Positions 56,961 through 61,817 of a DNA stretch of 64,000 nucleotides are shown piece by piece. A program made the translations under genes and the position numbers. The first letter of the stretch is position 1. Each line of letters starts with the position of its first letter. The notes beneath the pieces are model-generated. The model made no database searches and was not told the origin of the DNA. It worked only from the letters and a program-made list of their open reading frames with translations. Where the stretch lies: NCBI RefSeq assembly GCF_023707985.1, contig NZ_BRCF01000003.1:1-64000 (forward strand). The letters run 5' to 3'. Source of the stretch: Sporosarcina sp. NCCP-2716 (GTDB lineage: Bacteria > Bacillota > Bacilli > Bacillales_A > Planococcaceae).

Positions 56961-56989
56961 TTGACAAAGAACCAATACCCGGTTATAAT
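56961..56989 (+). promoter_or_regulatory. Perfect sigma-A promoter
   Basis: TTGACA, a 17-base spacer and TATAAT: both hexamers match the consensus. Start expected near 56996. No ORF follows on this strand before the terminator at 57237. Confidence 0.9.
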
Positions 56990-56995
56990 AAATAA

Positions 56996-57267
56996 GTTAA
57001 CACACGTTTTGCTGATTGTTGAATACTGGCATTCTGCGGAATGTTTACCGATAATACGTATTCACACTGGCGCGGCTACAGGGCCGCAAGGACGCAAAAG
57101 TAGGTAGGGTTTGCGTTGCTTATGTTAGGAAACACCTGCTGGACAACGACCGCGGCAAATGATCGTTGTGACAGATCACAAATTCGAAACCAATCTTTCA
57201 TCATTGACTATTCGATAATCGGCGAGACAACCTAACAAAGGGACACCCATAACCGGGTGTCCCTTTT
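56996..57267 (+). ncRNA. Candidate structured non-coding RNA, about 270 nt
   Basis: Between the perfect promoter and the terminator, no open frame longer than a few codons with a ribosome site is seen. Hairpins: CATTC-TGCG... (57030-57043), GCGGC/GCCGC (57072-57087), ACGCAAA/TTTGCGT around an 11-base G-rich loop (57092-57116), ACAACGA/TCGTTGT (57143-57169), and the long-range pair TGTTAGG (57123-57129) with CCTAACA (57231-57237) enclosing the last. I compared it by eye with 6S, tmRNA, RNase P, SRP and common riboswitches and found no fit. Novel or unrecognised RNA is inference. Confidence 0.65.
57237..57267. terminator. Bidirectional intrinsic terminator
   Basis: AAAGGGACACCC and GGGTGTCCCTTTT are perfect arms around ATAACC. 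Ends the candidate RNA (plus) and the MFS gene at 57277 (minus). Confidence 0.92.
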
Positions 57268-57276
57268 CCAATGCAT

Positions 57277-61421: not shown

Positions 61422-61454
61422 AAAAAACGAGGCCCCGCATAAGCGGGGCCTCGT
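61421..61454. terminator. Intrinsic terminator between the lipoprotein and csp genes
   Basis: CGAGGCCCCGC and GCGGGGCCTCG are perfect arms. The minus strand follows with TTTTTTT, ending the cold shock gene; the plus-strand side lacks a good T-run. Confidence 0.85.
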
Positions 61455-61464
61455 CATTCAGTTA

Positions 61465-61665
61465 TCAGAGTTTAATAACGTTAGCAGCCTGGAGACCGCG
61501 GTTGCCTTCTACGATTTCGAATTCAACCTGCTGTCCTTCGTCCAAAGACTTGAAACCTTCGCCTTGGATAGCTGAGAAGTGTACGAATACGTCGTCTTCT
61601 CCGTCAACCTCGATGAAACCGAACCCTTTTTCTGCGTTGAACCATTTTACTGTACCTTGTTTCAT
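61465..61665 (-). CDS. Cold shock protein (CspB/CspD-like)
   Basis: A 66-residue OB-fold protein: [20 protein letters not shown] with RNP1 (KGFGFI) and VFVHFSAI (RNP2). It binds single-stranded RNA/DNA and acts as an RNA chaperone. Size and sequence match the Bacillus Csp group. A long leader with a perfect inverted repeat precedes it. The ribosome site is TGGGGG, 10 bases before ATG. Confidence 0.95.
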
Positions 61666-61722
61666 GGACAAAAACCCCCAAATAATAATTGCTAATACAT
61701 GAACTCCCCTCAAATGAGAAAA

Positions 61723-61778
61723 ATTCACGTATTACAAAAAGTACCGACGCAGCCGATCACTCTCTGTAATACGTGAAT
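61723..61778 (-). promoter_or_regulatory. csp leader with 14-bp inverted repeat
   Basis: ATTCACGTATTACA (61723-61736) pairs perfectly with TGTAATACGTGAAT (61765-61778) around a 28-base loop, in the ~150-base 5' leader of the cold shock gene. Leaders of csp mRNAs regulate translation by temperature-dependent folding. Confidence 0.7.
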
Positions 61779-61817
61779 CGTTTTCCGTGGTGAGCACTTG
61801 CTATTAACCTTACCTAC

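Follow-up and report, generated by a model that had tools for sequence, protein, structure and literature searches.

A conserved structured RNA at the bsrC locus is predicted on the strand opposite to the Rfam BsrC model in Sporosarcina and other Bacilli

In a 64-kb stretch of Sporosarcina sp. NCCP-2716 DNA (hereafter the window, meaning the whole stretch that was analysed), an exact consensus promoter points into a region that lacks a plausible ORF, which raises the question of what is transcribed there, from which strand and with what role. A sequence-only reading of the window had proposed a novel structured non-coding RNA behind this promoter. Our analyses bear out the structured RNA but not its novelty, since the locus is homologous to Bacillus subtilis bsrC.

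A consensus promoter precedes a transcription unit without a plausible ORF

A promoter scan of the window identified TTGACA-17-TATAAT, consensus at 12/12 positions, at 56961..56989 (+). This is the sole exact occurrence in the window, where 0.01 would be expected by chance, and one of four copies in the whole 3.05 Mb assembly. We place the start of the RNA six bases downstream of the -10 box, by analogy with a published Paenibacillus riograndensis transcript (see below). The features of the locus are:

56961..56989 (+), promoter TTGACA-17-TATAAT, 12/12 (66/71 family loci have a promoter-like site in this position)
56995..57272 (+), predicted RNA from start to conserved tail, ~275 nt (start inferred)
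57006..57025 (+), closing stem P0, 5' strand, 20 bp (fold and partner-swap test)
57209..57228 (+), closing stem P0, 3' strand, 20 bp (fold and partner-swap test)
57028..57045 (+), 5' hairpin within a conserved TGGCATTC...AATGT block (sequence conserved; hairpin from the constrained fold)
57056..57060 (+), helix P1, 5' strand, ACGUA (covariation, constrained fold)
57061..57071 (+), junction strand UUCACACUGGC linking P1 to P2, near-invariant (alignments)
57072..57087 (+), hairpin P2, GCGGC/GCCGC (covariation, constrained fold)
57091..57117 (+), hairpin P3, GACGCAAA/UUUGCGUU (covariation, constrained fold)
57099-57109 (+), P3 loop AGUAGGUAGGG (= AGTAGGTAGGG), 11-nt, purine-rich and conserved (alignment, constrained fold)
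57121..57125 (+), helix P1, 3' strand, UAUGU (covariation, constrained fold)
57149..57157 (+), conserved ACCGCGGCA block, absent from B. subtilis-type copies (alignments)
57237..57266 (+), terminal hairpin, perfect 12 bp (constrained fold; relatives have a hairpin in this position too)
57264..57272 (+), conserved tail UUUUCCAAU, which includes the foot of the hairpin (73/74 relatives)
57042..57129 (-), match to Rfam RF01410 (BsrC), on the strand complementary to the predicted RNA (61.9 bits, gathering score 38)

The longest ORFs wholly within the predicted transcript encode 39 aa (+) and 42 aa (minus), and a 48-aa frame (+) would begin within the -35 box. Both genes flanking the RNA, which the sequence-only reading putatively named as patatin and transporter genes, lie on the minus strand, such that the next gene downstream is convergent and no co-oriented csp gene directly follows. 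The RNA sequence occurs once in the genome. The sequence-only reading was correct in describing a consensus promoter, no plausible ORF and flanking genes in the opposite direction. About 4.2 kb from the RNA, the Rfam cspA thermoregulator RF01766 matches at 61424-61787 (minus) with 108.7 bits.

The Rfam BsrC model lies on the opposite strand

Among 4227 Rfam families, the covariance model RF01410 (BsrC) matches the locus at 57042-57129 on the minus strand with 61.9 bits against a gathering score of 38. No second family matches at E up to 1, a result that includes 6S, tmRNA, RNase P, SRP RNA and known riboswitches, to none of which the RNA had been assigned on first inspection. The accompanying claim that the RNA has no known match does not hold. 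A confident Rfam hit, which that inspection had named as evidence against its proposal, formally exists by score, but the model sits on the opposite strand and spans only 88 of the ~275 nt. Because the match exceeds the gathering score but lies on the other strand, we class the RNA, by sequence, as a homologue of the bsrC locus and not as the RF01410-strand RNA.

When 71 loci from the window's family were compared, 66 had their best promoter-like site where one would be expected upstream of the core, on the strand opposite to RF01410; in 64 loci this site matches at least 9/12. On that same strand, a hairpin at least 120 nt downstream is found in 62 of the 71 loci, mostly 165-190 nt downstream of the core start; the nine loci that lack it include two divergent second copies (L002 and L003). 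The pattern of G-U pairs also distinguishes the strands. Across 67 distinct rows of 69, the plus-strand consensus has 1134 of 1139 cells paired, with 153 G-U and 1 A-C, whereas the minus-strand consensus has 717 of 737 cells paired, with 0 G-U and 19 A-C.

A published transcript provides a further indication. Table 4 of PMC5670726 lists a 322-nt P. riograndensis SBR5 RNA-seq transcript, labelled BsrC, that runs from 688,067 to 687,745 on the minus strand. Our model R1, built for the strand of the RNA described here, matches genome G1104 at 687,820-687,950 (minus), and the RF01410 match in this genome lies on the other strand than the published transcript. Upstream of 688,067 is TTGCAA-17-TATAAT, with the reported start at the sixth base after it, and the reported end at 687,745 falls before the hairpin that we take as the likely 3' end. 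We take G1104 and PMC5670726 to share a coordinate frame because the SRP RNA (130,370-130,638 plus in G1104; 130,367-130,639 plus as tabulated in PMC5670726) and the RNase P RNA (6,001,666-6,002,081 minus; 6,002,090-6,001,625 minus as tabulated) agree in position.

The arrangement in Bacillus is similarly informative. In Bacillus halotolerans and Bacillus tequilensis, two B. subtilis relatives, RF01410 matches between two genes that we take to be ydaG and ydaH by their sequence and the published locus, and these copies carry the homologous core together with a promoter and U-rich terminator, all on the same strand as the genes. Further copies are found at ydeB-cspC in B. subtilis relatives; for B. 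subtilis itself, the BSGatlas entry gives an additional RF01410 site between cspC and ydeB. The literature cites bsrC as expressed in the vegetative phase of B. subtilis and places it in the first row, with a ratio of 53.6, among the rows listed of a B. subtilis Hfq co-immunoprecipitation table. A B. subtilis tiling study (PMC2784878) did not call a segment of its own for bsrC, and a BsrC homologue was not detected in Bacillus amyloliquefaciens FZB42.

The promoter and hairpin positions, the G-U asymmetry, the ydaG-bsrC-ydaH layout and the published Paenibacillus transcript thus lead us to conclude, with little room for doubt, that a conserved structured RNA is encoded on the plus strand. The locus itself is not new, but its strand, extent, fold and spread are, as far as the literature was searched: the portions of the BsrC, csp-leader and Bacilli small-RNA literature covered contain no description of the plus-strand fold or of a reversal of RF01410. 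The terms BsRC and BSRC in PMC11805744 and PMC6425571 refer to something else.

A long closing stem encloses a covarying three-way junction

The plus strand at 56996-57269 folds at -90.2 kcal/mol (z -5.0 vs shuffles), as compared to z -3.6 for the minus strand of the same region. A fold constrained to the supported helices reaches -87.7 kcal/mol, a cost of 2.5 kcal/mol relative to the free minimum.

The core of the RNA is a three-way junction of helices P1, P2 and P3, identified in an alignment of 50 loci (A2) that was built with a model containing P2 and P3 and lacking P1. In A2, 94.8% of 893 junction cells are paired, 15 of 18 pairs have changed on both sides and the covariation score is 0.553, compared with 0.241 (sd 0.012) for shuffled and at most 0.145 for slid controls. 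P1 alone, which the alignment model did not contain, scores 0.526 vs 0.192 shuffled; its window sequence, ACGUA/UAUGU, is ACUUA/UAAGU in many relatives. The junction strands are the near-invariant UUCACACUGGC and AAGGA, and the P3 loop differs in length by one base between lineages. The local hairpins first seen by inspection hold up (P2 and P3 covary and the fold supports them), and P1 to P3 are kept and covary among relatives.

Long-range pairing is supported for the closing stem P0, in which 57006-57025 pairs with 57209-57228. Native duplexes average -15.4 kcal/mol, compared to -10.3 kcal/mol when partners are exchanged; of the 74 tests, 37 fall within the best 5% and the other half outside it. 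The long-range pairing proposed earlier, TGTTAGG/CCTAACA (57123-57129 / 57231-57237), is not supported: it overlaps and competes with the 3' strand of covarying P1, most relatives have GTTAGAA there and no conserved partner is apparent by eye.

A CACUGG/CCAGUG(G) pairing is attractive in most rows of alignment A1 but is likewise unsupported, since CACUGG is fixed and its proposed partner is variable (as in L001, L022, L032, L039 and L049). A minus-strand peptide, suggested by an ATG-started short frame seen by eye in carD-linked copies, was rejected; there is no ATG at that place in the window and family copies, and the one-base variation of the P3 loop and the covarying helices further rule it out.

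The ACCGCGGCA block is near-invariant in the window's family and present in some other families. By eye, CCGCGG within it has no covarying partner.

The predicted 3' end combines a perfect hairpin with a conserved tail

The sequence-only reading had the RNA end at a perfect intrinsic terminator. The hairpin part of this claim stands, as the terminal stem is a perfect 12 bp; the terminator part is less secure, as the U-tract that follows is short (CCCTTTTCC, with only CCCUUUUCCAAU after the 12-bp hairpin) and a terminator scan of the window did not list the hairpin. Elsewhere in the window, U-runs are longer in most of the hairpins that have a terminator-like tail. The terminal hairpin is followed by UUKUCCAAU, and a TCCAAT-like sequence is found in 73 of 74 relatives. 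The hairpin foot plus tail (CCCUUKUCCAAU) is better conserved than the stem above it, and similar tails can be seen by eye in other families. A pairing of the tail with UGGC is a candidate by eye.

The RNA is widespread within class Bacilli

In the order, RF01410 matches 250 of 261 genomes (all from a single family) and all 19 genera, with a single copy in 247 of the 250. The remaining 11 genomes are also empty for R1, on which basis the RNA may be dispensable; this search had no positive control, so an empty result shows nothing. Model R1 matches 181 of 398 genomes and 67 of 145 genera of the class, and in a phylum sample it matches 14 of 398 genomes, all 14 within class Bacilli. Within single genera, R1 matches were found for g44 in 73 of 75 genomes (E up to 0.001) and for g21, to which G1104 belongs, in 98 of 100 (E up to 0.01). 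Some genomes (e.g. G294, G350, G438 and A. pseudofirmus) contain two copies in differing arrangements.

The core was also present on two contigs titled Pseudomonas sp. ISL-84 (L154 and L172), one of which (L172) has it beside a carD-like gene, as in Bacillus records. The Pseudomonas record name is probably wrong.

Gene context differs between lineages

Around the window's family, surroundings vary. Among 52 distinct loci, 34 are followed by a convergent ORF of at least 100 aa and 17 by a co-oriented one that lies within 600 nt; one locus has no such ORF. Elsewhere, three arrangements recur, in which the RNA is free-standing, near carD or within csp leaders. Of 220 loci, 27 lie within 2.5 kb of a carD-like ORF, 30 of a csp ORF and 17 of a DEAD-box helicase ORF, where the carD, csp and helicase labels were assigned by sequence motif and by eye.

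A csp gene lies within 700 nt of none of 99 family-context loci (L001 and L004-L101, with 86 distinct cores; three of the 99 loci are from another family of the class), of 7 of 40 loci in a second set and, among the matches listed, of 15 of 119 in a third. Shifted windows of these same 119 loci gave 15 of 319 among the matches listed. Co-oriented csp genes at +120 to +450 are found in 3 of 40 loci and in 10 of 119 among the matches listed; the 119-locus set comes from a pattern scan that favours one sequence type, and its fractions are not unbiased. Copies within csp leaders are found in Brevibacillus, Metabacillus, Sporolactobacillus and Bacillus species, and also in A. pseudofirmus.

The carD-linked copies (L184, L160, L192, L002 and others) are a second copy type, located ~170-300 nt downstream of a carD-like gene. 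They share ~160 nt of conserved upstream DNA that includes TTGAAG-18-TAAAAT, and no clear terminator was observed. In Brevibacillus centrosporus, a c-di-AMP riboswitch (RF00379) is found at L178:1589-1743, about 0.6 kb from the RF01410 match.

A docking role in trans and its alternatives

Because the next gene is convergent in most loci around the window's family, we consider it very likely that the RNA acts in trans in Sporosarcina sp. NCCP-2716, although the 17 loci with a co-oriented ORF within 600 nt count against this. Comparison shows a free-standing gene, single-copy and homologous to bsrC, whose structured RNA (predicted at ~275 nt) is encoded on the plus strand; on the whole, we favour an RNA that would act in trans by docking. 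The strong promoter would drive transcription, the long closing stem would tie the 5' and 3' parts together in a closed fold that protects the RNA and the terminal hairpin with its conserved UUKUCCAAU tail would end the unit. The three-way junction would display the purine loop, which is near-invariant, along with its own strands UUCACACUGGC and AAGGA, and together these may form a docking surface for a conserved partner. A single antisense target would be a less plausible partner than a protein that binds RNA or belongs to an RNP, and we give a protein-docking or RNP mode about as much weight as its converse.

Copies that neighbour csp, carD or DEAD-box helicase genes, or that lie within the csp leaders of some genera, hint at RNA-chaperone or cold-shock biology, as does the first place of bsrC among the listed Hfq co-immunoprecipitation rows. 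The cold-shock link is weak and lineage-bound, given that csp is found near 0/99 loci in the family set and near 15/119 loci vs 15/319 shifted windows among the matches listed. We thus regard a link to this biology as tentative.

The best-surviving alternative, which we nonetheless find unlikely, is a trans-acting antisense sRNA in which the 11-nt purine loop is a seed for pyrimidine-rich target stretches, with or without Hfq, and the junction does no more than display it. Binding of another RNA by the loop, suggested in the sequence-only reading, is possible, as the loop is exposed and near-invariant, and bsrC comes first (ratio 53.6) among the Hfq rows listed. Yet conservation is equally high in the junction strands, for which a simple seed would have no use, and loop length differs by one base between lineages. 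By eye, a CsrA-like site (CAAGGAUG) and an anti-Shine-Dalgarno pairing by the loop are further candidates.

An improbable alternative is that the RNA is at root a cis-regulatory csp leader that senses temperature, a ligand or Csp, the free-standing copies being orphans akin to riboswitch-controlled sRNAs. The co-oriented csp genes described above, including that of A. pseudofirmus, fit this account, but no family locus has csp within 700 nt, the window's next gene is convergent and the ydaG-ydaH copies carry their own terminator before ydaH. The earlier statement that the RNA is not the leader of a gene thus holds for the window and its relatives in the family. Finally, the RF01410 strand could be the right one, with a functional minus-strand BsrC and plus-strand signals that are coincidental or serve an antisense partner, but despite the curated Rfam strand and good minus-strand scores, the G-U asymmetry, the promoters and hairpins of relatives, the published transcript and the ydaG-ydaH layout make this highly improbable.

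Beyond the docking role favoured for the window, the RNA could be a class-wide large structured RNA with a function of its own (as an RNP component, protein decoy or ligand-binding RNA), overlooked through Rfam's short wrong-strand piece, with a core that acts in cis in csp-linked lineages. We are evenly divided on this broader proposal.

Significance and comparison with known systems

Annotation by homology to RF01410 places the RNA on the wrong strand, and strand-specific data may therefore miss or misread it. The RNA so affected is kept by nearly all genomes of the window's family and of the two further genera examined in depth (g44 and g21). B. subtilis carries the locus, which makes its role directly testable there, and the corrected strand, fold and extent mean that functional experiments can be designed now.

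The RNA can be compared with three kinds of known system. The csp 5' leaders with cold shock boxes described for B. subtilis in PMC8307031 are paralleled in some genera, where the core lies upstream of csp and co-oriented with it, whereas in the window and its surrounding family the RNA is free-standing. The RF01410 BsrC entry represents a homologous locus (61.9 bits vs 38), which most genomes of the order carry once. The RNA described here is nevertheless on the opposite strand and ~275 nt in length, compared to 87 nt for the entry, and it has a closing stem, three-way junction and terminal hairpin that the entry lacks.

Lastly, 6S and OLE are large free-standing structured bacterial RNAs. 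No Rfam family beyond RF01410 matches the RNA described here, which resembles RNAs of the 6S/OLE kind in its strong promoter of its own, long closing stem, wide conservation and lack of an ORF, and differs from them in a three-way-junction core and sequences that are peculiar to it.
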